Source: an uncultured bacterium (GTDB lineage: Bacteria; CAIJMQ01). From it: a stretch of 13,094 bases of DNA. Positions 639 to 13,094 of the stretch are shown piece after piece. The translations under genes were made by a program, and so were the position numbers. Below the pieces are notes generated by a model. That model had not been told where the DNA came from and made no database searches. It saw only the letters and a list, made by a program, of their open reading frames with translations. Position 1 is the stretch's first letter. Each line of letters opens with the position of its first letter. The stretch is from positions 1 to 13,094 of the forward strand of contig CAIJMQ010000105.1 of the NCBI GenBank assembly GCA_903821905.1, in the 5' to 3' direction.

Positions 639-1187
639 TTAAAGTACGTTTACGAAGCGATGCAGGGTATCGTCGTAAAGCGTAACTTCTAAATTTGCTG
701 CCTGATATGCAGTTCGAAAACACAAAGATTTAATTTTTTTACCATTGAGCTCAATAGGTTGATCAATTAATACTTGAATTAGCAAAGATATAAATCTCTT
801 CCATTTATCTGTAGTAAAGATGTCTGTCGGCAAACTGTATTTAGAAAAGAATTTAGTCATGTTTTGCTGTAATTCTTTTTTGTAGATAAACTGCACATGA
901 GAATTTCCAGAAGGCCAAAATTGGCCATCTGGAGATGCATGCCCCCCAAAAATACTTTCTTCTATCCCCGTCACAACTGAAGATATTACATCGAGTTGCC
1001 TACTTTTCTTTGTATGTAACGCCCAGTTGCAATAAAAACGTAAAATTTTGTATTTATCCTCTTTGCATTCTATCCTGTCCATCAGTTTTCTGATTTCAAC
1101 TAAAAGATAAACTACATGGCATTCCTCTGTAACAGGATCGTGATCCGAGAGAAATTTCTTAAGTTTATTAATAAGACTATCTTCCAT
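639..1187 (-). CDS. Uncharacterised 182-aa protein
   Basis: Function not recognised. The start is the first ATG after an in-frame TAG three bases upstream of the codon before it (frame TAG-CCT-ATG), so no longer N-terminus is possible. There is no clear Shine-Dalgarno sequence, which is unusual beside its neighbours. The protein has no signal peptide or membrane segment and looks soluble. Residues ~1-75 are predicted helical, with a conspicuous conserved-looking stretch EECHVVYLLVEIRKLMDRI, then YKILRFYCNWALHTKKS. The middle (~80-110) is Gly/Pro-rich and the rest mixed. The LVEIRKL and FYCNWALHTKK segments resemble a widespread hypothetical family of similar size, seen by memory only. It stands 37 nt after the 67-aa gene and may be cotranscribed with it. 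Confidence 0.7.
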   Translation of the reverse strand: MEDSLINKLKKFLSDHDPVTEECHVVYLLVEIRKLMDRIECKEDKYKILRFYCNWALHTKKSRQLDVISSVVTGIEESIFGGHASPDGQFWPSGNSHVQFIYKKELQQNMTKFFSKYSLPTDIFTTDKWKRFISLLIQVLIDQPIELNGKKIKSLCFRTAYQAANLEVTLYDDTLHRFVNVL

Positions 1188-1212
1188 AGGCTATGCGAAA
1201 ATTATTGATTCG

Positions 1213-1258
1213 GGGGACACAATACTAGTCAATTAAATGGTCGCTGCTGTCCCCATTT
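1213..1258. repeat. GGGGACA...TGTCCCC inverted element, copy B, overlapping a gene end
   Basis: GGGGACA at 1213-1219 faces TGTCCCC at 1248-1254, giving 7-bp arms around a 28-nt centre. The right part (1235-1258) is the longer variant of the element at 597-617. The stop codon of the 67-aa gene (1225-1227) lies inside it, so the element forms the end of that coding sequence and the spacer to the next gene. Confidence 0.7.
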
Positions 1259-1428
1259 TTTCTACTACCGACTTGTTGCTGTTTCTTCAGTAGCTTGAAT
1301 CCCACTACGCCACAGACGATTATTACCCCTAAATCAATCATAACCCATACAGCATATGGCAACCTTGCTATGACACCCAGCAAAACGATTCCTGCTACTA
1401 TTAACAAAGCTATGCCCATATTTTTCAT
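1225..1428 (-). CDS. Uncharacterised 67-aa two-helix membrane protein
   Basis: Function not recognised. ATG at 1428 is preceded at 6 nt by AGGA (1435-1438), which overlaps the stop region of the upstream 187-aa gene, so translation is probably coupled. Two hydrophobic helices are visible, ~4-22 (MGIALLIVAGIVLLGVIAR) and ~26-47, ending at the basic stretch FKLLKKQQQ. A short loop (LPYAV) separates them, giving a hairpin topology with both ends probably cytoplasmic. The final ~10 residues (KNGDSSDHLID) and the TAG stop are encoded by the interspersed GGGGACAGC element. They are therefore likely recent additions rather than a conserved tail; the native protein may have ended soon after the basic segment. 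Confidence 0.65.
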   Translation of the reverse strand: MKNMGIALLIVAGIVLLGVIARLPYAVWVMIDLGVIIVCGVVGFKLLKKQQQVGSRKNGDSSDHLID

Positions 1429-1439
1429 TTTTCATCCTA

Positions 1440-2003
1440 CTAAGTTCCTAATATCTTTCTAAACCAACCTTTTGATTCTGCCTTTGCTCTAATAAGTATC
1501 GGGTTACCCTCTATAAATTTATCTATATTAGCAAAACCTGCTTCTTTTAAAATCTCCCGCTGTGTTTTTTCTCTCTCTTGATATGATTTGGTTATGGGTC
1601 CTGGTGTAGGAAAAAAAATAGACGCTATATTTAATTCAGCTTCTACAAGGAATTGCGAACCCACTCTTTGTTCTGCAACAATGTTAAAATTCTCTAAGGC
1701 AATTTTAAAAGTCCAATAAGTCTTAGCAAAATTAAGAAATAACTCATTTGCTTCTGGATAGTTTCTTGCAAGTGTTACTCCATATATCTCCTCTATTTTT
1801 TCCTCTGGAGCAAAAGTTTCCCCATCTGCTGCACAGCGAACAAAACCTGAGAGTATCGCATAATAAATTTCTGCTGCTCTTTCTCTGTTTTTTCGCACAC
1901 TTTCTCGCTCTTGGCTAAACAGCATTTCCTCATCCGATATAGTTAAAGTTACTCCACCACGAGAAACCAATCTTTGAAGTAATGCCATCCAACCCGATTC
2001 CAT
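1440..2003 (-). CDS. Uncharacterised 187-aa protein
   Basis: Function not recognised. ATG at 2003 follows AGGGG with 5-nt spacing, a good ribosome site. There is no signal peptide. Hydrophobic stretches are short (FKIALENFNIVAE, NIASIFFPTPGPI), so it is probably soluble or peripheral. Residues ~25-55 are a charged helix (SQERESVRKNRERAAEIYYAILSGFV). It has an acidic-rich central part and ends GWFRKILGT. Downstream, the stop TAG runs directly into the ribosome site of the 67-aa membrane protein gene (11 nt between stop and start), so the two are almost certainly expressed together and may act together at the membrane. That last point is inference from layout only. Confidence 0.68.
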   Translation of the reverse strand: MESGWMALLQRLVSRGGVTLTISDEEMLFSQERESVRKNRERAAEIYYAILSGFVRCAADGETFAPEEKIEEIYGVTLARNYPEANELFLNFAKTYWTFKIALENFNIVAEQRVGSQFLVEAELNIASIFFPTPGPITKSYQEREKTQREILKEAGFANIDKFIEGNPILIRAKAESKGWFRKILGT

Positions 2004-2024
2004 TATAACCCCTTTTGCCCTTTT

Positions 2025-2048
2025 AAATAGGGACAGCTGTCCCTATTT
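2025..2048. repeat. Perfect 24-bp palindrome with GGGACAGCTGTCCC core, copy C
   Basis: AAATAGGGACAG is followed immediately by its exact reverse complement. It lies 11 nt past the stop of the 275-aa gene and about 21 nt before the next start. It shares the TCCCTATTT half with the element at 597-617. On the plus strand it is followed by Ts, but no plus-strand gene exists to terminate. On the minus strand the tail is only TTTAAAAG, so terminator activity is doubtful. It could also act as a dyad protein-binding site. Confidence 0.7.
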
Positions 2049-2059
2049 TTTAAGACAAT

Positions 2060-2887
2060 TTATTTCCCTATAAATTTTTCCCTAAGATTTTTAATGTGCT
2101 CCCGCTCAAATTCATCACACATTTTCTTATTTTCTGCTCGCATTTTCTTATTTTCTGCTCTATTTTTTGCTCTTATGATGGAATATACTTCTTCTACTTC
2201 TTTTCTAAATGCTTCTAACCGTGCCAACAAAGTAGTATACCATTCTTCTTGTGGTAGAAATCCTCTAACCTTAACCTGTCTAAACAATCTATCGTGGTCA
2301 ATAATAGCTTCGAATACAGTAAGCTTATTACTTTTGTTGTACACATATATAGTCGTATAATATGGCGAAGAAGATTCCTTTGTCAATTCCATTGTAACTG
2401 AATAATGATCCTTGTTATGGTCAAAACTATAAACACAACCCGTCATTGAGTACTTCGTTGAGTCGTCGGTTCTGGCGCATTCAATGTCTTCTACTGATAT
2501 AGTTTTATACTTCCATGACTTTGGTTTCTCAGGGTCTCTAGAAGAATTAAGAGAGATGGGTGAATCCAAACCCGAGAAGGTACGGAGTTGGGGATAAAGT
2601 CTTTTCCTGTAATATTCATCTTCTATTAATTTTAGTGTCTCGTAAATAGTTTGGGCAAGGTTTAAGTCACTTTCTAACCTTTCCCTTTCCTTAATTACTT
2701 TTTTTAAATCTTTCAGAATTCCCATTTCCTTTTGAGTCTTCCCTTTTTCTCTGCCCAAATTGTATATTACCGCAGCAGCAATCAGCGTGCCTATCAAGCC
2801 CAATAGACCTATTGCGGGCACAAAGGCTATTAATAATAAACTCACTGCAAGTGCTATTCCTACTGGTAAATTAAGCCATTTATTCAT
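2060..2887 (-). CDS. Uncharacterised 275-aa membrane-anchored coiled-coil protein
   Basis: Function not recognised. An ATG at 2926 is possible, but AGGAGG at 2893-2898 sits 5 nt before the ATG at 2887, so the protein most likely begins MNKWLNLPVG. Residues ~5-45 form a hydrophobic hairpin of two membrane helices (IALAVSLLLIAFV; IGLLGLIGTLIAAAVIYNL). Then comes a basic, charged, probably coiled-coil segment (~50-85, REKGKTQKEMGILKDLKKVIKERERLESDLN). The domain at ~100-205 is mixed and beta-leaning with two Cys (IECARTDD, MTGCVYSF), and a C-terminal Lys/Glu/Arg-rich helix carries a perfect tandem RAENKKM-RAENKKM. The bulk of the protein probably lies in the cytoplasm. It stands 127 nt from aspS, separated by a palindromic repeat, so it may be its own transcription unit. 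Confidence 0.7.
   Translation of the reverse strand: MNKWLNLPVGIALAVSLLLIAFVPAIGLLGLIGTLIAAAVIYNLGREKGKTQKEMGILKDLKKVIKERERLESDLNLAQTIYETLKLIEDEYYRKRLYPQLRTFSGLDSPISLNSSRDPEKPKSWKYKTISVEDIECARTDDSTKYSMTGCVYSFDHNKDHYSVTMELTKESSSPYYTTIYVYNKSNKLTVFEAIIDHDRLFRQVKVRGFLPQEEWYTTLLARLEAFRKEVEEVYSIIRAKNRAENKKMRAENKKMCDEFEREHIKNLREKFIGK
2120..2161. repeat. 21-bp tandem duplication inside coding sequence
   Basis: Two copies of a 21-nt unit (2120-2140 and 2141-2161) differ only at the last base. They encode consecutive RAENKKM heptads on the minus strand near the C-terminus of the 275-aa protein. The preceding residues RAKN suggest a degenerate further unit. The length keeps the frame. Confidence 0.8.
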
Positions 2888-2892
2888 TCTTT

Positions 2893-2898
2893 CCTCCT
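2893..2898 (-). promoter_or_regulatory. Strong ribosome binding site that fixes the start at 2887
   Basis: The minus strand reads AGGAGG followed by AAAGA and then ATG. This is the best Shine-Dalgarno sequence in the window. It argues against the upstream in-frame ATG at 2926, which has no comparable site. Confidence 0.75.
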
Positions 2899-2926
2899 GC
2901 ATTTTTCTCTCAGCTTCACAATCCAC

Positions 2927-3015: not shown

Positions 3016-4800
3016 TTATCGGTCCAACTTTATATGCAATTCTTTCAGTTGGGCGTCGTTGACAGATGATGGAGCTTTGGTGGTAAGGCAGATGCCTTTT
3101 TGTGTTTTGGGGAATGCGATTACATCCCTGATAGAAGCTTCTCCGCTCATTATTGCCATGAGCCGGTCAAAACCGAACGCAAGACCGCCATGAGGCGGAG
3201 CACCGTATTTGAATGCCTCAAGCAGAAACCCGAATTTTTCGTTTGCTTCTTCTTTGCTTATGCCGACTGTTTTGAAAACCTTTTCCTGAAGCGCACGGTT
3301 ATGTATTCTTATGCTTCCGCTTGAGATTTCTGTCCCGTTTAAGACAACGTCATAAGCTTTGCTTTTTACTTTCTCAGGTTCTTTTTCCAAATACTTTATA
3401 TCTTCTTCTAAAGGAGAAGTGAACGGATGATGTGCAAATTCCCATCTCTTTTCTTCTAAGGAATACTGTAGAAGCGGGAAGTCTATTACCCAGACAAAGG
3501 AGAATTGGGGAACATCTTTCAGGTAACCCAAGTCCTCTGCTAATTTCACTCTTAAACTTCCAAGCGCAGTATTTGTTATCTGCTTATTGTCAGCAACTAT
3601 TAGGATTAAGTCGCCTAATTTTGTGCCGAGCACATCTTTTAATTTCTTTAACACTTCTTCCTTGAAATATTTTACTATCGGTGAATGGCAAGAATCGGCT
3701 TTAACTTCTATCCACGCCAAACCGCCGGCGCCAAAACCTTTAATATATTCTATTAAATCGTTCCTCACTTTAAGCGAAAGCTTTTCACCGCCGTTAGGAA
3801 CATTGATTGCTTTAACTATTCCGCCTTTGTCTATTACCTGATGGAAGATTTTTAAGTTGGTTTGTTTCGCGATGTCGGTTATATCTTTTAATTCCAATCC
3901 AAACCTTATATCCGGTTTATCAACGCCGTAACGTGATATTGCATTGTCGTATGTGATTATCGGGAAAGGAGTTTTTATTTTATACCCTGCTGTTTCAAAA
4001 ATATGTTTCATTAAACCTTCCCCTATCTCCATAACATCTTCTTTCTCGACAAAAGACATTTCCATATCAATCTGTGTAAATTCGGGCTGTCTGTCTTTCC
4101 TTAAATCCTCATCTCTGAAACAGCGGACAAGTTGGAAATATTTATCTACTCCGCCAACCATAAGCAGTTGTTTGAAAAGCTGTGGCGACTGAGTGAGAGC
4201 ATAGAATGAGTAAGGGTTAAGCCGCGAAGGGATAAGATAGTCGCGGGAACCTTCCGGTGTGCTTCGGGCAAGGAACGGCGTTTCTATTTCAAGGAATCCT
4301 TTGTCAGCCAAAAACTTTCTTGCCGCTTGAGTTACTTTATGTCTTAAGAAAAGATTCTTCTGCATTTTATCTCTTCTTAAATCTATATATCTATATTTCA
4401 ACCTGATTTCTTCTCCGAGATTATCCACGTCAAGTTCCAAGGGAGGAGTTTCCGATTCGTTAAGGATTTTGACCTCATTTACGACAACTTCAATTTTACC
4501 GGTAGGCATAGAAGCATTCTCTGTCCCTTGTGGTCTTGGTCTCACATTGCCTTTAATTGCGATAACAAACTCGCTCTTTAAACTTGCTCCTTTACTGTGT
4601 ATTTCGGAACTAACCTGCGGGCTGAATACTATTTGTATAATACCTATCCTATCCCAAAGGTCAACAAAAACAACTCCGCCGTGGTCTCGGCTTCTTCTCA
4701 CCCATCCCATCAATAAAACATCTTCGCCGATTTCTTTGGATGAAACTTCACCACAGTAATGAGTTCTCTTCCAGTCCCCTAAACTTTCCAATTTATCCAT
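3016..4800 (-). CDS. aspS: Aspartate--tRNA(Asp/Asn) ligase, bacterial type, predicted non-discriminating
   Basis: Cytoplasmic class II aminoacyl-tRNA synthetase, 594 aa, the usual length for the bacterial form. It charges tRNA(Asp) with aspartate. An N-terminal OB-fold anticodon-binding domain (~12-110) is followed by the catalytic core: motif 1 around FLEIETP (169-175), the aspartate-binding TQSPQLFKQ (203-211), motif 2 FRDEDLRKDRQPEF (228-241), and motif 3 GAPPHGGLAFGFDRL (533-547, Arg546). The GAD insertion domain (~300-420) is present. H40 in RRSRDHGG and G92 in RPRPQGT match the residues linked to relaxed tRNA specificity (His31/Gly81-type in Pseudomonas AspRS), where discriminating enzymes such as that of E. 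coli have Leu at the first site. It probably also makes Asp-tRNA(Asn) for GatCAB. ATG shares its A with the TAA stop of hisS; the best ribosome site (AAAGG) is rather distant. Confidence 0.97.
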   Translation of the reverse strand: MDKLESLGDWKRTHYCGEVSSKEIGEDVLLMGWVRRSRDHGGVVFVDLWDRIGIIQIVFSPQVSSEIHSKGASLKSEFVIAIKGNVRPRPQGTENASMPTGKIEVVVNEVKILNESETPPLELDVDNLGEEIRLKYRYIDLRRDKMQKNLFLRHKVTQAARKFLADKGFLEIETPFLARSTPEGSRDYLIPSRLNPYSFYALTQSPQLFKQLLMVGGVDKYFQLVRCFRDEDLRKDRQPEFTQIDMEMSFVEKEDVMEIGEGLMKHIFETAGYKIKTPFPIITYDNAISRYGVDKPDIRFGLELKDITDIAKQTNLKIFHQVIDKGGIVKAINVPNGGEKLSLKVRNDLIEYIKGFGAGGLAWIEVKADSCHSPIVKYFKEEVLKKLKDVLGTKLGDLILIVADNKQITNTALGSLRVKLAEDLGYLKDVPQFSFVWVIDFPLLQYSLEEKRWEFAHHPFTSPLEEDIKYLEKEPEKVKSKAYDVVLNGTEISSGSIRIHNRALQEKVFKTVGISKEEANEKFGFLLEAFKYGAPPHGGLAFGFDRLMAIMSGEASIRDVIAFPKTQKGICLTTKAPSSVNDAQLKELHIKLDR

Positions 4801-6071
4801 TATTTTATTAACCTTTTTTTCAGTTCACTTACTATGTTATCAGATTTTATGCTTTCTTCGTCACCCGTTTTCATGTTCTTCAGTTTCGCTGTTCTATTCT
4901 TAAGCTCATCTTCGCCTATAATGATAACGTATCGGGTTTTGAATCTGTCAGCTCTGCGGAACTGCGATTTTAAGCTGCTTTCACGATAGTCCATATCTGC
5001 AGACATTCCTCCACTTCTAATTTTTTGCAGCAGTTGGAACGCTGATTTAAAACATTCTGTACCTATATGTACTACAAAAACATCTAACTCATCTGAAATA
5101 GGAAGTTGTTTTTTCTCGTTCTTTAATGCGGCAATTATGCGTTCCATACCTCCGGCAAAACCGCAGGCTGGGACATCTTCACCTCCCAGTTCTTCTATAA
5201 GGTGATTATACCGCCCGCCACCGATTAGAGTTGCTTGAGCTCCTAAATGCGGATATATAAATTCAAATGTCGTATGTGTGTAGTAATCCAATCCTCTGAC
5301 AAGATTGGGAGTGATTTCAAAGGGAACTTCCAGAAGCTTGAGCAGCTCTTCTATTTTTGCCAAATAGTTTTTGCAATATTCGCAGAGGTTTTCGGTAAAA
5401 GCAGGCACTTTTTTCAGATACTTCTTGCAAGTGTCATTTTTACAATCAAGCATTCTCAAGGGATTATCTTTATATCTTCTTTTGCAGTCGTCGCAAAGTT
5501 CGGAATAATGTTCTTTCATTTCCGCAACAATAACCTTTTCATAACCGGGTCTGCAGACAGGACAACCCACACTGCCCAAGAGCAGTTCGCAATTATCCAA
5601 ACCTATACTCTTCAGAATCAGATATCCCAGATATATAATCTCCGCATCTACAGCCGGGTTCATTACACCAAGGACTTCTGCGCCGAACTGATGGAACTGG
5701 CGCTCTCTGCCTGCCTGAGGCCTTTCATATCTAAAGAAAGGCCCTTTGTAGTAGAGTTTCCAAACCTCATCTTTCGTATAAAGCTGGTTTTGCAGATATG
5801 CTCTCACGACAGGCGCGGTGCCTTCGGGCCGAAGCGTCAAGCTTCTCTCTTTTCTATCGGTGAAAGTGTACATTTCTTTATTTACGATATCTGTTGCTTG
5901 CCCGATGCTCCTTACAAAAAGTTCCGTCCGCTCGAAAATAGGAGTTCTTATTTCCTGATATCCGAATCTTCTGAATATATCGGAAATTTTATCCTCCAGA
6001 TAGCTCCAAATCCTGCTCTCATCGGGAAGGATATCGTTCGTGCCTCTTAATGATTGAAATTTAGGATTCAT
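4800..6071 (-). CDS. hisS: Histidine--tRNA ligase
   Basis: Cytoplasmic class II synthetase charging tRNA(His), 423 aa, normal length. The start MNPKFQSLRGTNDILPDE is the typical HisRS N-terminus. Visible motifs are TLRPEGTAPVVRA (79-91), motif 2 FFRYERPQAGRERQFHQ (112-128), the histidine-specific LVRGLDYYTHTTFEF (257-271), and motif 3 GGGRYNHLIEELGG to GFAGGMERI. A C-terminal alpha/beta anticodon-binding domain begins near DVFVVHIG. The insertion between motif 2 and LVRGLDYY has four Cys pairs (C170/C173, C193/C196, C210/C215, C230/C233), a known bacterial variant and plausibly zinc-binding. It overlaps aspS by one base, so the two are cotranscribed. The ribosome site is weak (GGAAGG about 15 nt before the ATG). 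No T-box motif is visible in the 134-nt leader. Confidence 0.97.
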   Translation of the reverse strand: MNPKFQSLRGTNDILPDESRIWSYLEDKISDIFRRFGYQEIRTPIFERTELFVRSIGQATDIVNKEMYTFTDRKERSLTLRPEGTAPVVRAYLQNQLYTKDEVWKLYYKGPFFRYERPQAGRERQFHQFGAEVLGVMNPAVDAEIIYLGYLILKSIGLDNCELLLGSVGCPVCRPGYEKVIVAEMKEHYSELCDDCKRRYKDNPLRMLDCKNDTCKKYLKKVPAFTENLCEYCKNYLAKIEELLKLLEVPFEITPNLVRGLDYYTHTTFEFIYPHLGAQATLIGGGRYNHLIEELGGEDVPACGFAGGMERIIAALKNEKKQLPISDELDVFVVHIGTECFKSAFQLLQKIRSGGMSADMDYRESSLKSQFRRADRFKTRYVIIIGEDELKNRTAKLKNMKTGDEESIKSDNIVSELKKRLIK

Positions 6072-6186: not shown

Positions 6187-6207
6187 AATCGGGACTATGT
6201 CCCGATT
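6187..6207. repeat. Hairpin AATCGGGAC-TAT-GTCCCGATT overlapping a stop codon
   Basis: A 9-bp perfect stem with a 3-nt loop. Its right arm includes two bases of the TAA stop of the 661-aa transporter gene (6206-6208). It is directly followed on the minus strand by the nested palindrome at 6127-6186. The GGGAC/GTCCC arms are identical to those of the hairpin at 476-488. It could hinder 3'-exonuclease attack on the upstream operon mRNA, but it lacks the U-run of an intrinsic terminator. Confidence 0.7.
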
Positions 6208-8191
6208 AAAATACCAGCGCTGTAACTGCTTGGGCAATTAAAGCTATAGCAATAGATGCCATTCCGACAAGACCCATACCACAGCCGTAACCTGCAAGAA
6301 TTATAGGCGTGTATTTTCTCCATGTTTCCTTGCCTATTTTCTTCTCAAAGAAAAATCTGCTTAAAAGCGCTCCAAAGAACATAGGAATAGTCCAATGAGG
6401 AAATCCGGACACTCCGGCTACAATACCATAGAAAAAGGACACCGGGAATTTAAAAAATGAAAGTACGGCATACAATACCAAGCTAACTCCGCCACCCCAA
6501 AAAATGAACCCTGGTTTAATTGCCTGCAACATCCATTTCGGACCACCCGGCAGAGTAGAAGTTGCCCAAAGACATTTGAATGTAGATTCCATTGGCCACA
6601 TTCTGTTAACAAATGGGTAGGAAGCAGACGGTATGCCACCCATTCTCCAGATTAGATGCCAGAATATAAATGAGAATATAAGCATCACTCCCAAAGCAAG
6701 AAATTCGGCTTTAACCCACGAACCGAATTTAGTCCTGGTTAATTCCAACTCTTTAAACTTTTGGCTTGTCCATCCCTGGTTATAAAACGGAACCGGCGCA
6801 AACCAGATATTCACTCCTTTATAACCTGAAAGTATAAAAATACCTTCTTTTAAATAAGGAAAACTTATTTGGTCTGCAACACCCGTTATTCCGAACATAC
6901 GGGCAGCGATATAAGATAGAAGAGGAGTAAGAATAAATCCAAATAAAATAAAAAGGAGAATAGGAAATCCAGGAACAAGGATATGGCACAATATAACATA
7001 AAGCGTCGTAGAAATAATAAAGACTACAGCTGCTTTCCAGATTGCGACATCGCCCCTACCTTCCGGAAGTTTTCGTAAAGATGTTCTTCCGCCTTTTGCT
7101 ATAAGCATGGTTATAACTTTCCAAATTCCCATCAAGGCAACCAAAGCAGCCATACCGATACTTACAGAAAGCCATATATCCATATGAGTGGTAACATAGG
7201 TAGGAATTGCGGTCATCCCGGGTAGCCAACTTTTTATAATACCGTATTTATATAGAATTGGATTTAAAATGGTCTTACATCCCACGGAACCTACAAAAGT
7301 TCCCACAACTACCCAGAAAGGCACAATAAAACCAGCCAGGAAAACGCCTAAGTCGGTTGCGAAGCCCAACATCGAGGACGGCCAAAAAACACCAATCTTA
7401 TCAGTGGCATCAACAAAAGGAATTGGCAGAAGCATAAACGGTTTAGTCATCATAGTTCCCGTAACAGCCGGAATTAGTATATAAAAAACACCGAAAACCA
7501 CACCTATCATTGAGGAAATAGAAAAAACCTTCCAGCGCCATGTTTCTGTTTTAGAACTGCTCTCAGCTAATGCGGTAGCACCTTCAGCGGCAACAGCAGC
7601 CATAGGGAAATCGAGCTTCTCAACATCACTTGTCAGGCGGAACATAATATATCCCAAACCAAAGAAATTAAGACGGAATAGAATATGATGAATAATTATT
7701 AGAACGATAGGCAAAATCCAGACTTTACTTAAAAATGTCCTCTGTATTAATGCTTCAGAACCGGCAGGAGGAACTACCCAGACGGGAACTTTCAAACCCC
7801 AAGCCACAGCATTGGCAGACCCTGCAAGATATTGATTCCATATCAACTCAGAGAAAGCTCCTCCCTGAAGTGTTAATGTAGCGGCGCCTAAAACCAATCC
7901 TGGGGCTATCAAACTGCCTGCCAAACAATATATGATATAAATTTCCTGCTTGGTCATCTTGGTTAAAGAGCGCTTGGTAATTTCCATGAAAAGAATCAAA
8001 GTAACCCATTGAGCAGCGCCACCAATACCTGCGCCTATCATCAATCCCAGATAGATGGTACCAGGCATCATAACTATACCTATGAAAAATGCCGCAAGTA
8101 TAGTTTTTATATTAAACCCTTCTTCAAAGGGTTCCTGGAGATAGTCTGCTTTTTTTAACTCAAGCTGTTCTTTTACTTCCTCGTCAGCCAT
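6206..8191 (-). CDS. OPT-superfamily-like multi-pass membrane transporter
   Basis: A 661-aa integral membrane protein with roughly 13-15 hydrophobic segments spread over the whole length, e.g. ~28-57, 60-70, 83-104, 157-172, 223-247, 280-300, 338-362, 386-408, 409-430, 494-516, 560-580, 584-612 and 628-660. The N-terminal ~25 residues are charged and cytoplasmic. Residues 194-210, DFPMAAVAAEGATALAE, resemble the PMA..AEG..ALAE signature of the oligopeptide transporter (OPT) superfamily, and the size fits. Homologues in uncultured bacteria are often labelled 'peptide transporter' or DUF6785/DUF6784, a family name recalled and not tested. The substrate is unknown; a peptide or metal chelate is the family expectation. 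GAGGAG lies 8 nt before the ATG and overlaps the stop of the 1552-aa gene, indicating coupled expression. Confidence 0.8.
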   Translation of the reverse strand: MADEEVKEQLELKKADYLQEPFEEGFNIKTILAAFFIGIVMMPGTIYLGLMIGAGIGGAAQWVTLILFMEITKRSLTKMTKQEIYIIYCLAGSLIAPGLVLGAATLTLQGGAFSELIWNQYLAGSANAVAWGLKVPVWVVPPAGSEALIQRTFLSKVWILPIVLIIIHHILFRLNFFGLGYIMFRLTSDVEKLDFPMAAVAAEGATALAESSSKTETWRWKVFSISSMIGVVFGVFYILIPAVTGTMMTKPFMLLPIPFVDATDKIGVFWPSSMLGFATDLGVFLAGFIVPFWVVVGTFVGSVGCKTILNPILYKYGIIKSWLPGMTAIPTYVTTHMDIWLSVSIGMAALVALMGIWKVITMLIAKGGRTSLRKLPEGRGDVAIWKAAVVFIISTTLYVILCHILVPGFPILLFILFGFILTPLLSYIAARMFGITGVADQISFPYLKEGIFILSGYKGVNIWFAPVPFYNQGWTSQKFKELELTRTKFGSWVKAEFLALGVMLIFSFIFWHLIWRMGGIPSASYPFVNRMWPMESTFKCLWATSTLPGGPKWMLQAIKPGFIFWGGGVSLVLYAVLSFFKFPVSFFYGIVAGVSGFPHWTIPMFFGALLSRFFFEKKIGKETWRKYTPIILAGYGCGMGLVGMASIAIALIAQAVTALVF

Positions 8192-8203: not shown

Positions 8204-11200
8204 TCATGCTTTATCCTTAATCTGCAATTTTTTCATACCTTCGTCTGTATATTGTTTTTTTACATCAATGGGAATAGTTCTCCATATCAAGAATTGTTTT
8301 CTAATTATATTCAGGAAACTCCGGTTTAGTCTCGTCCAAGTAAGTGCTTCTCCTGTATTTCTCTTAATCGTCAATTGTATGAGATAAATACCATATTCAC
8401 CCGTTGGGACAGCTCTCATATCAACTTCTTGTGAAACTCCCAAATCAAAAGGAGACAAGTAAACCACCATCTTTATAGAATATCCTTCTTCATTTTTATG
8501 CTGAAAAGAAGAAAAGCTTACCCCGGAAGTATAAAAAGTCCCTACGGAAGCTTCTGTATATGAATCAAAGAAATTGTTAAAGAATAAATAGATACCTAAA
8601 ACTTCTTTACCGGCAATAGTAAACGGGAAATCAAATTCCCAAATATCCCCTTTAGGATCCGGGAGAACCCATTTTCTCGTTACATCTGGGACTGCCATCT
8701 GAGCAGCTTTCTTTGCAGGATAAATAGTAGAAAGTATAACCGTTGCCATTACTACTAATGTAGATAATACTGCAGCAGTAGAGGAATAATTCAAAGTCAA
8801 ACCCGCCATAAATCCGAATTTAGTGAAAATCCACGCCACAACTTGTCCAAGAAGATATCCCATTACTGCTCCCAATACGGCATAAACACAAGCTTCTGCT
8901 ATAAAGAGAGACCCGATATGCACAGGAGCAAGCCCCACAGAAGAATAAGTCCCGATTTCTCTCACCCTTTCATAAACAGAACCAAGCATTGTATTCAGCA
9001 CGATTAAAGCAGCAATAATAATCGGGATAACCACGTTGCTCATACCCGAGAAAGACGTTGAGCCTATGGAACTATATACCCAAGTATTGTCTTTATCTCC
9101 GACATAGATTGTTAAACCTAAACGGGAAACGAAATCCTCTGTTTCTTTGATTACATCTATATCCGGGGTAAAGTGTAACGCTATGGATTCTATGGTCCCT
9201 CCAAAAGAATCAAGGAAATCAAAAGGTAGTATTGGAACACTTGAAACATCTGCATGGCGGTCAGCGGTTTGTATTTCAAAATGTCCTCCCGTTATTTGAT
9301 TACGGGCTGTCTGCATTTCTTGCAATTGGTCAGAAGTCATACTTGAGAAAGAAACTGGTGTTATTAGTTCATCATCCAAATCCCTTATTCCGGCAACCTG
9401 TGAACTATCAATAACTCCTATAACATTCACCTCTTGTCCAAATATAGTTATGACTTCACCTTTATCCGCAGAAAAATATTTTTTCATTGTGTCTAAGCGG
9501 AATTGGCGAACAAGAGTTTTCTTTTCAGTATCCGGTAAATCTTTTTTATTGATAGCTTCTGCTGCTTCTTTTTCTTGATTTGTAGCCCACAAACTAAAAG
9601 CCAGCTCTTCGGGTAAAATGCAACTATATTTCTCACCTTCTTTAAACCATCTTCCCAACAGAAGATATTTGCTCATATGAGTTATACTATCTTCCTGCGG
9701 GCTCATACCTAGTAAACCGTAGGTATATATACCTTCCTCTCCTCTTCTGATTTTTATGCGAGTATTCTTATCAAGTGCTTTACATATAAGCCAACTACGC
9801 GGGGCTACTATAGCAATATCAGAAAACTCACCCTTTATGTACCCATATGCTGCTTCTTCCAAGGGATTCCATCCCCTATTTTTAATAAGAATACCGTTAT
9901 AGAGCGGTTTATTGGGCTTCAAAATTTTATTGTATTGTATATATGTTTTGACGGAAGTAAACGAAAGCACAGTAAAGGTGAGCAGTATCAGAGTTATAGC
10001 AGTCAGCAGGGTTCTCAACTTTCTTCTTTTCATATTAGAAACACCCAAGTTAAAGGCTGTTCCGCTGGCCGCTATTCTCCCGACATCAGCTTCGTATATC
10101 ATCGCCCTTTTCCGCTTCATTTCGCCCATTTGTTCTTGGAATTTACCAAAGACAAAAGAAATAACAATTACGGAAAGCGCCAATAATATGAATCCGATTA
10201 ATATAACTTCTGGAGCTTCAGCTAATCTGAAAGCAGGATGCACCTGTCTCATTATCCAATAGATTAAAATAAAGATACACGAAACTCCTATTATTTGTTT
10301 GTTTATTTCGGAGAAATCAAATAATAATCTCTCAAGGAAATATGCAAAAGGAATAAGTAAAGCCATATAGAATATTATCGCTTTTATTACATCATTAGCT
10401 GTAGCTTTAACATCGGGATAACCTCTGGAAGCAATCGAGAGAGCTTTCCTTGCATTTTTTATGTGCTCATCCCACAATTTCCGTTCTTTGGCAACTTTTG
10501 CCTGGTCGAGAGCTTCTTTAGCTTCTTTGTGCAGTTCTGACAGCCTATTATTCTCTACTCCATATCTTTGGAAACTATTTATTCTATATTCGTTCAAAGC
10601 CAACATATCATGAGCACCTTGATAAGGTGTCATAGTAATGGCACTAATTCCAGTTATCGGGAAACCATAACCTGTTGCTTCCTCTGCATTAGAAGACGAA
10701 GGAGAATTAAGGAGTAGTAGTCTTCTTCCTAAAGGTCCGGCATTTCCCAAGACTTTTATTTTTTCCTTGGGATTTGCAAAAGCTACGCCTTCATGTTCAA
10801 CATCGGAAGACCATATCCAACCGCCCCCTGTAATCTGACAGCCCCATGATATGGGGTAACTATTCACATCATTGAAAACATCCATACCATCAAGCTGTAC
10901 TAAGTATGCGGGGTCGATTAAATCATATACGTTTACAGCCTTACACGGGAAAACAACAGACACATGAGATTGTTCTTTTGTGGTGATTTTAAACTTCATC
11001 GGATAACTTGCATCTCCATCCGAACCTTTATCCGGAGCAAAATCTATCTCTCCCGTTTCGTTATTTATATGATACCCTTGAAGTATAGGTTCAGTATTAA
11101 ATTCCAGGTCAGTTGTTTCATTATCAGATAGTTTACCTTCCCAAATACCATTAATACTGGCCATCCCTTTTTCATCTGTAAGCTGTATTGCCAGACCCCT

Positions 11201-12862
11201 TACTCCCGTGAAATTCTTTCGGTTAACCATCCAATTGTAGACAACATAAGCTAATGCATTAGGAACCGGCTCGGATGGAACAAAAGATGTGCGTCGGTCA
11301 AAAGTTACAATTTTTGCGTTAAGGGTCATTAACTTATCGTCCAGTTTAAGGCGGGACTGCGGGAAGAAATCTTTATCATTTAAACCTCTTGATAGACTAC
11401 AGGCAAGAAACTTTATTTGCTTTGACAAATTCTTATAATTTACGCGACTTTCTGTATCAAGCGGTGTATCAATGAATTTACGGAAATCATAGACAGTGGC
11501 AAAAGTCAGCGAAGGTGTGCCGGCATACAAAACCATTCTCCCGTCTACTTTAATTTCACTCGGTATCAAAGTATCCCAGGATATGCCTCTTATGGGAGAG
11601 ATACCATTGATAAGCGCATTATCCGGTTCATATCCTAAAACCTTGCAGATTTCATCTCTATATTCAGTTAATTTCATTCCAAATTTAGAAAAATATTCCT
11701 GGAAATAAAATGCTCTACTGCCATGCCATACTGCCAATTCATCACTGCCGCTTGAAAGGTCAAGACCTATGAATAACTTCACGTCCAGTTTGCCGTCTAC
11801 TCTTAAATTTGAATCTTTGTAAAACGGTTCTTTCATTCTCTCTATAAAAGGTTTGGTTCTTCTAAGATGTTCATCCAAGAAGTAAGTGATACCTGAAAGT
11901 CTCATGAAATGGCCTGATGTAGCTACAAAAAGCACTGATCTGGCAGGTGGATTGTTCTTCATAATACGGGCTATTTCTAATAATGCTGTTATACCGCAGG
12001 CATTATCCGCACCAGGAGAAAGGGCAGGAACAACAGACATCGAATCATAATATGAGGAAAGGATTATTACTTCTTTTTTCAACTGTGGGTCGGAACCTTC
12101 CAGATAACCCAAAATATTGGCACCTTCAATTGCCTGCCAATCCATTCTTGCTTGAAGTTTCACTCTGGTTGATTTTTCTTCTAAAACTTTCAATAAAGTG
12201 GTTGCATCATCTTTTTTAATCCAGAAACGAGGTATATTTAATGGTAGGGCAAGGAATTTTTCATCAGCTTCAAATCGTGTTGTATCCTGGGGTTCTATAA
12301 ATATGACAGCTTTTGCTCCCATCATGGAGATGTCTATCCATTTCTTTCCACTATTAAAATCAAGAAGCGCAATACAGCCATCAATGTCTTTGCCATTAAA
12401 ATTTTTAAGTTCGCCATTCCCTCCGTAAAGGATTTCTCCTTCCAACCCTTCAGGAGGCAATGTTGAAGTCCTGACTAAATTTGGATAAAAACAAGATAGT
12501 TCTATGATATTGGTATCTTCTATGCCTACTTCTGATACAGAAAGAGTATCGAGAATTTTTAAACTGGCACCCTTATCTACAGGCACAGTTACGGGAAATT
12601 TCTCGCCTCTTACATCTTGTAATCCTATTTTTTGAAATTCACTTATGATAAAATCCGCAGCCTTTTGGCAACCGGGATATCCGACCACTCGAGAGTTTAA
12701 AGAGGAGAAATAAGAGATATAATTTTTTAAATTTTCTTCTTTTATTTCTTCGGTAATTTTTTTGTAATCCAGGGTATTATTATTTTCCGCTTGTATTAAA
12801 ACGTTTGAAAATAAGAGATGCATCCCTAAAATCGTCAATGCAAAAATAGTGGACTTTCTCAT
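8204..12862 (-). CDS. Giant M28-peptidase-like / FtsX-MacB permease fusion
   Basis: A 1552-aa membrane protein. Signal peptide ~1-25. An M28 aminopeptidase-like domain spans ~35-490 with a PA-like insert (~135-250): YYDS at 271-274, SPGADNACG at 282-290, LFVATSGHF at 311-319, GLDLSSG at 366-372, IDTPLDT at 464-470. Compared with active M28 enzymes the first His is Y271, the Glu-Glu pair is H318-F319 and the last His is D465, so peptidase activity is doubtful. Residues ~515-760 are beta-rich, ~770-812 a charged helix. Membrane helices fall at ~823-845, 855-872 and 884-905, then a basic cytoplasmic loop (KRKR, KRRKLR) and an FtsX/MacB module: helix 949-971, extracytoplasmic domain ~972-1273, helices ~1275-1296, 1318-1345 and 1362-1382 with ERVREIGTYSSVGLAP. 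A further domain, ~1400-1530, ends the protein. The stop of the TPR gene is 3 nt upstream. FtsX-type permeases normally work with an ABC ATPase; none lies here. Confidence 0.88.
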   Translation of the reverse strand: MRKSTIFALTILGMHLLFSNVLIQAENNNTLDYKKITEEIKEENLKNYISYFSSLNSRVVGYPGCQKAADFIISEFQKIGLQDVRGEKFPVTVPVDKGASLKILDTLSVSEVGIEDTNIIELSCFYPNLVRTSTLPPEGLEGEILYGGNGELKNFNGKDIDGCIALLDFNSGKKWIDISMMGAKAVIFIEPQDTTRFEADEKFLALPLNIPRFWIKKDDATTLLKVLEEKSTRVKLQARMDWQAIEGANILGYLEGSDPQLKKEVIILSSYYDSMSVVPALSPGADNACGITALLEIARIMKNNPPARSVLFVATSGHFMRLSGITYFLDEHLRRTKPFIERMKEPFYKDSNLRVDGKLDVKLFIGLDLSSGSDELAVWHGSRAFYFQEYFSKFGMKLTEYRDEICKVLGYEPDNALINGISPIRGISWDTLIPSEIKVDGRMVLYAGTPSLTFATVYDFRKFIDTPLDTESRVNYKNLSKQIKFLACSLSRGLNDKDFFPQSRLKLDDKLMTLNAKIVTFDRRTSFVPSEPVPNALAYVVYNWMVNRKNFTGVRGLAIQLTDEKGMASINGIWEGKLSDNETTDLEFNTEPILQGYHINNETGEIDFAPDKGSDGDASYPMKFKITTKEQSHVSVVFPCKAVNVYDLIDPAYLVQLDGMDVFNDVNSYPISWGCQITGGGWIWSSDVEHEGVAFANPKEKIKVLGNAGPLGRRLLLLNSPSSSNAEEATGYGFPITGISAITMTPYQGAHDMLALNEYRINSFQRYGVENNRLSELHKEAKEALDQAKVAKERKLWDEHIKNARKALSIASRGYPDVKATANDVIKAIIFYMALLIPFAYFLERLLFDFSEINKQIIGVSCIFILIYWIMRQVHPAFRLAEAPEVILIGFILLALSVIVISFVFGKFQEQMGEMKRKRAMIYEADVGRIAASGTAFNLGVSNMKRRKLRTLLTAITLILLTFTVLSFTSVKTYIQYNKILKPNKPLYNGILIKNRGWNPLEEAAYGYIKGEFSDIAIVAPRSWLICKALDKNTRIKIRRGEEGIYTYGLLGMSPQEDSITHMSKYLLLGRWFKEGEKYSCILPEELAFSLWATNQEKEAAEAINKKDLPDTEKKTLVRQFRLDTMKKYFSADKGEVITIFGQEVNVIGVIDSSQVAGIRDLDDELITPVSFSSMTSDQLQEMQTARNQITGGHFEIQTADRHADVSSVPILPFDFLDSFGGTIESIALHFTPDIDVIKETEDFVSRLGLTIYVGDKDNTWVYSSIGSTSFSGMSNVVIPIIIAALIVLNTMLGSVYERVREIGTYSSVGLAPVHIGSLFIAEACVYAVLGAVMGYLLGQVVAWIFTKFGFMAGLTLNYSSTAAVLSTLVVMATVILSTIYPAKKAAQMAVPDVTRKWVLPDPKGDIWEFDFPFTIAGKEVLGIYLFFNNFFDSYTEASVGTFYTSGVSFSSFQHKNEEGYSIKMVVYLSPFDLGVSQEVDMRAVPTGEYGIYLIQLTIKRNTGEALTWTRLNRSFLNIIRKQFLIWRTIPIDVKKQYTDEGMKKLQIKDKA

Positions 12863-12865
12863 ATC

Positions 12866-13094
12866 TTATCTCGCATTTTCCTGATTTTTTTCTAACTGCT
12901 TTATTTTATACCATGCACCCATTGTTTCAGGATTCATATTTATCTCTTTTACATACTCTGCCTGCGCTTTAACCAAATCTCCCTCTTTTTCATATATTAA
13001 ACCCTCAAGATAATATAGACGCGGGAAATAAGGATTAATCCTGTAAATTTTATCCAATTCTTCCCTACATCTTCCAAGGTCTTCTTTCTTAAAA
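12866..13094 (-). CDS. TPR-repeat protein, C-terminal 75 residues (5' end beyond window)
   Basis: The frame is open to the window edge (FKKEDLGRCREELDKIYRINP at its visible start, reading through a TTG that should not be taken as the real start) and ends at TAA, 12868-12866. The segment PRLYYLEGLIYEKEGDLVKAQAEYVKEINMNPE fits the 34-residue tetratricopeptide repeat consensus (Leu/Gly/Tyr, Ala and Pro at the expected places), preceded by the end of another repeat (YRINP) and followed by the start of a third helix (AWYKIKQLEK). TPRs are helical scaffolds for protein-protein contact. The gene precedes the 1552-aa fusion by only 3 nt, so it is probably the preceding member of the same operon and may help assemble that membrane complex (inference). 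Location and full length cannot be judged. Confidence 0.8.
   Translation of the reverse strand, partial: FKKEDLGRCREELDKIYRINPYFPRLYYLEGLIYEKEGDLVKAQAEYVKEINMNPETMGAWYKIKQLEKNQENAR

Follow-up and report, generated by a model that had tools for sequence, protein, structure and literature searches.

An M28-fold pseudo-peptidase fused to an FtsX-type permease and encoded beside an OPT-like membrane protein in two candidate phyla

For the fusion protein pM28-FtsX, encoded on the minus strand of the window (the whole stretch of 13,094 nucleotides that was analysed), the function is predicted to be ligand capture or sensing for a transporter, probably rather than cleavage, because the gene adjoins one for an OPT-like membrane protein. 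In the favoured explanation, which is given a probability of roughly 45%, pM28-FtsX is a type VII-like permease subunit acting with the OPT-like transporter, and its pseudo-peptidase pocket binds a ligand. The parts are known, and the combination of M28 domain and FtsX permease with a constant OPT neighbour is new; no description of an M28-FtsX fusion was found in a literature search of incomplete coverage. If the explanation is true, a bacterial pseudo-enzyme role in a family spanning two phyla becomes open to genetic test, and a transporter partner is added to the type VII ABC repertoire.

The reading frame and coordinates given in the original prediction were correct, and the layout of the protein is as follows.

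8204-12862, minus strand: pM28-FtsX, pseudo-peptidase/FtsX fusion of 1552 residues with an ATG start (reading frame, Pfam, full-length homologues)
12794-12850, minus strand: residues 5-23, a hydrophobic stretch at the N-terminus, either a signal peptide or the first TM helix (hydropathy)
11348-12730, minus strand: pseudo-M28 ectodomain, residues about 45-505 (profile comparison against the PDB and structure comparison)
10397-11347, minus strand: residues 506-822, extracytoplasmic, without recognisable family (searches by sequence)
10148-10396, minus strand: residues about 823-905, three additional and highly conserved TM helices (hydropathy and conservation)
9038-10072, minus strand: FtsX TM1 and MacB/LolCE-type extracytoplasmic core, residues 931-1275 (VIA Z 12.7 with the MacB periplasmic region 3ftj)
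8657-9037, minus strand: FtsX TM2-TM4 with the coupling-helix motif ER..EI...S.VGLAP.H, residues 1276-1402 (Pfam and conservation)
8207-8656, minus strand: residues 1403-1552, C-terminal domain predicted to be cytoplasmic, whose model, mostly at pLDDT about 80, looks START/Bet v 1-like (VIA Z 8.5 with Ara h 8)

With Pfam, Peptidase_M28 was matched over the cut-off at residues 249-317 (1.7e-10), FtsX (PF02687) at 1279-1389 (6e-14) and MacB_PCD below threshold at 1125-1177. Sequence searches with residues 506-822 and with the C-terminal domain returned no named family.

Full-length pM28-FtsX was present in three of the seven genomes examined from the window genome's phylum, the window genome included, and the family was present in 31 of the 35 examined from a second candidate phylum, which was reached via locus L021. 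The range of two phyla rests on a scan of genome contigs queried with two exact peptides only, by which five loci were found in records titled bacterium, Elusimicrobia and Caldisericota, two of them on contigs already known from genomes G004 and G005. No relatives were found in viral contigs. The alignment, with homologues from the two candidate phyla, holds 34 sequences, of which 31 cover the M28 site. Split genes were considered as a sign of modularity and rejected, those in G015 and G040 being contig ends and that in G038 a frame change at one point. The G038 fusion (L081:7710-12085) is read in two frames with one switch point and may be a real split, a frameshift or an assembly error.

The strongest functional clue is the operon in which the fusion lies, which the original prediction had missed; its OPT-like partner and TPR gene are the best functional lead.

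6206-8191, minus strand: OPT-like polytopic membrane protein, 661 residues, 12 bp downstream of pM28-FtsX (Pfam OPT 8.7e-6, co-occurrence)
12866-13093, minus strand: end of a TPR gene truncated by the contig edge, its last 75 codons and stop lying 3 bp upstream of pM28-FtsX (7e-19 against the L021 TPR protein)

Wherever the contigs extend far enough, the loci read in the two phyla keep the order TPR, pM28-FtsX, OPT. Co-occurrence is near-perfect: of 42 genomes, 33 have both the fusion and the OPT-like gene and eight have neither, and the single genome with the fusion only (G027) has it at a contig edge. The OPT-like gene was thus found in 33 of the 34 fusion-bearing genomes and in 0/8 of the others (Fisher 8e-8, kinship ignored); since these genomes are related to one another, the counts do not represent independent events. 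The family assignment of the neighbour counts against the favoured explanation, as it lies around the Pfam cut-off: the match spans only part of the OPT profile (PF03169), and against a cut-off of 25.8 bits the window protein scored 25.1, that of L024 31.0 (1.5e-7), that of L021 25.7 and that of L023 15.2.

Several further genes were observed around these operons. Downstream of the OPT-like gene, hisS and aspS (window 3016-6071) form a synteny common to the window and L024, and glyQ is found near the operon in several members of the second phylum. A gene for a DUF6785/DUF6784 membrane protein lies between the TPR gene and pM28-FtsX in L024 (L024:3713-5659), and in L022 a 104-residue remnant of it, 84% identical, occupies the same place (L022:4464-4775). 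Three minus-strand reading frames of 182, 187 and 288 residues at window 639-2926 are without confident family match.

The permease part has an FtsX/MacB-type (type VII) fold, as indicated by the PF02687 match, by the Z of 12.7 for the MacB ectodomain and by the order of the TM helices, and it matches MacB, LolCDE and YbbP. Hydropathy places TM1 at about 953-971 and TM2-4 at about 1277-1380, with the MacB-type core between them. The N-terminal half, which has the same order of TM1, ectodomain and TM2-4, was tried as a degenerate second FtsX, which would give the two homologous halves of a duplicated 10-TM permease of the YbbP/BceB kind; this was rejected, since profile comparison found no resemblance between the N-terminal three TM helices and the FtsX part (hhalign probability 0.3%). 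The coupling helix (ER..EI) is invariant across 27 sequences, which suggests ATPase docking, and the segment preceding TM1 is near-invariant. In type VII ABC transporters the major coupling helix lies between TM2 and TM3 (PMC5985334), and that of pM28-FtsX sits in this place.

No co-directional ABC ATPase gene was found in any pM28-FtsX operon read in either phylum, and the proposal of an ABC mechanotransmission complex is therefore unproven. This speaks for an explanation in which the FtsX part works without any ATPase and the fusion is a multi-domain scaffold or receptor that serves the OPT-like transporter passively, as an accessory or in its assembly, especially as the other FtsX loci of the window genome have an ATPase beside or fused to them; the extra three-TM segment, conserved nearly as strongly as the FtsX helices, points in the same direction. 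However, the near-invariance of the coupling helix and the pre-TM1 segment is hard to explain without ATPase contact, and candidate ATPases exist in trans, so that such a scaffold is considered unlikely.

A few ATPase-like neighbours lie farther from the operons, and one of these, in G040, is part of a pair that is divergent from the pM28-FtsX operon and adjoins it, namely a mini-FtsX of 214 residues without ectodomain encoded with a LolD-like ATPase. Mini-FtsX and the fusion were both present in 31 genomes and both absent from six (Fisher 4e-4, kinship ignored; G037 entered on a fragment). The absence of mini-FtsX from three genomes with the fusion, and its presence in two without, count against the favoured explanation. 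The co-occurrence is compatible with a LolCDE-like heteromeric type VII complex but does not prove one. The LolD-like ATPase beside mini-FtsX is very conserved (about 75-77% identity between both phyla), the pair was located at L013:750-2136 (G000:C18) and in L126-L137, and in the window phylum it comes after a PqqD-like gene.

A regulator of the cell envelope comparable to FtsEX/EnvC or YbbAP-TesA would use the ectodomain to dock a periplasmic hydrolase or to act on lipid or peptidoglycan, with the OPT-like protein as a side component. Type VII permeases commonly work via an extracytoplasmic partner (PMC12646458), and the TPR protein encoded upstream would suit such a role. In the model the C-terminal domain looks START-like, which may point to a hydrophobic ligand; many helix-grip entries match with Z up to 8.5, a value near the tool's stated noise level and accompanied by no sequence match. 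The tightest genetic link, however, is to the OPT-like transporter and to no hydrolase, and this regulator role is regarded as improbable.

The M28 fold of the outer domain is supported by profile matches against the PDB (2ek8 1.9e-13, BSAP 7.9e-10, transferrin receptor 4e-7, nicalin 8e-6), by structure comparison (VIA Z 18.5 with BSAP and 18.3 with 1amp, PSMA and the transferrin receptor also giving about 18) and by Pfam M28 matches in 29 of 30 family members. The stretch N-terminal of the Pfam match aligns with the N-terminal parts of BSAP and the transferrin receptor. Structure predictions were built on six-sequence alignments; the ectodomain model had a mean pLDDT of 51, and the AlphaFold-based pocket geometry was discarded because confidence beyond about residue 270 of the model was too low for it.

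In the alignment with BSAP/YwaD, the HYDS of active M28 enzymes corresponds to Y271-YDS and the AEE to G317-H318-F319, and in the family profile the final HTP.D reads D465-TP.D, confirming that Y271, H318-F319 and D465 stand at canonical site positions as had been proposed.

12050-12052, minus strand: Y271, standing where M28 enzymes have their first His ligand (Tyr in 21 and Phe in 10 of 31 homologues)
11909-11911, minus strand: H318, standing in place of the catalytic Glu of M28 enzymes (His in all 31)
11759-11761, minus strand: D368, surviving M28 Asp ligand position (Asp in 27 and Glu in four of 31)
11468-11470, minus strand: D465, standing where M28 enzymes have their last His ligand (Asp in all 31)

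Compared with an active M28 site (ligands His, Asp, Glu, Asp, His and a catalytic Glu), four positions, the first His, the catalytic Glu, the metal Glu and the last His, are lost in 31/31 homologues. The metal Glu position (319) holds Phe in 24, Tyr in six and His in one. D286 and D368 had both been taken as retained ligands, and only the D368 position stands as such across the family: the bridging Asp position (286) holds Thr in nine, Glu in eight, Ser in seven, Gly in one and Asp in six of 31. None of the 31 keeps the canonical His/Glu pattern, the window copy being no lone exception, and no intact two-zinc site made of other residues is visible in the sequence.

As a control, five M28 proteins from second-phylum genomes were placed in the same alignment; all five had both the first and the final His as well as the D-N, and three had the Glu-Glu pair, the others having Lys-Glu (one) and Glu-His (one). 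Since these controls mostly keep their ligands, the loss of the zinc site is read as real and not as an alignment artefact; on the alignment it appears family-wide and ancestral to pM28-FtsX. The original description of a degenerate M28 domain on a MacB/FtsX-type permease thus holds across the family, on the evidence of the homologues, the controls, Pfam and structure comparison. In the M28 peptidases of L122 and L124, the C-terminal halves look GNAT acetyltransferase-like by eye.

When the bridging Asp is left out, the other five old site positions show higher conservation than columns drawn at random from the domain, with 0.5% of random sets scoring as low, and for all six positions the figure is 2.6%. 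Between the two close relatives L022 and L024, the dN/dS of the pM28 domain is 0.085, indicating purifying selection. Because the site positions are conserved and the domain is under purifying selection, the old pocket is probably still in use, and these sequence data suggest that it was repurposed and did not simply decay. The title of PDB entry 2anp describes a Glu151-to-His mutant of the Aeromonas aminopeptidase as functional, Glu151 being its catalytic Glu, so a His at this position alone is no proof of inactivity, and the loss of metal ligands is the stronger argument. Residual catalysis by H318, D368 and D465, working in the old pocket with one metal or none, to which the invariance of H318 and D465, the Asp/Glu at 368 and the 2anp precedent might lend weight, is very unlikely, since the first His and the metal Glu are replaced by aromatic residues, the bridging Asp is lost in 25/31 and no more than one or two of the canonical metal ligands remain.

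In the favoured explanation, the outer M28-fold domain, its zinc site gone, would no longer hydrolyse anything but would persist as a binding pocket. Its ligand would probably be a peptide or peptide-like, the least secure step, which is drawn from the chemistry of M28 and OPT proteins. Binding would be relayed via the MacB-type core and the FtsX helices to the OPT-like protein, so that uptake is gated or substrate is presented to it, and the energy would most likely come from an ABC ATPase in trans, with the mini-FtsX/LolD-like pair as the leading candidate. The ligand class, a physical complex, the ATPase in trans and the direction of transport are what we infer, and the computed results cover the fold, the missing ligand residues, the constraint at the old site, the conserved operon with no ATPase gene in it, the near-perfect OPT co-occurrence and the conserved coupling helix. 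The fuller proposal of a new class of transporter complex, in which an OPT-family secondary transporter is driven or gated by an ABC-type mechanotransmission permease bearing a pseudo-peptidase as receptor, and a separate mini-FtsX pair provides the ATPase, is doubtful.

Among known systems, M28-fold pseudo-peptidases are best known as animal receptors. Transferrin receptor, nicalin and nicastrin share the M28 fold with pM28-FtsX, the first two also as profile matches; in all three the zinc site is lost and the fold is used for binding. They are eukaryotic, and to our knowledge none is fused to an FtsX permease, whereas pM28-FtsX is joined to one and has an OPT-like gene adjacent. The BSAP/YwaD and Aneurinibacillus AM-1 aminopeptidases are the best sequence and fold matches over the pseudo-M28 span but, unlike it, keep their zinc ligands and are free enzymes. 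We know of no requirement for an FtsX partner among OPT proteins, to whose profile the neighbour protein matches in part, and no OPT protein needing one was found in the literature search. MacB, LolCDE and YbbAP-TesA have the FtsX fold, the MacB-type extracytoplasmic core and the coupling-helix motif in common with pM28-FtsX, which differs from them in an operon without ATPase, in the added pseudo-M28 domain, three TM helices and C-terminal START-like domain, and in its OPT-like partner.
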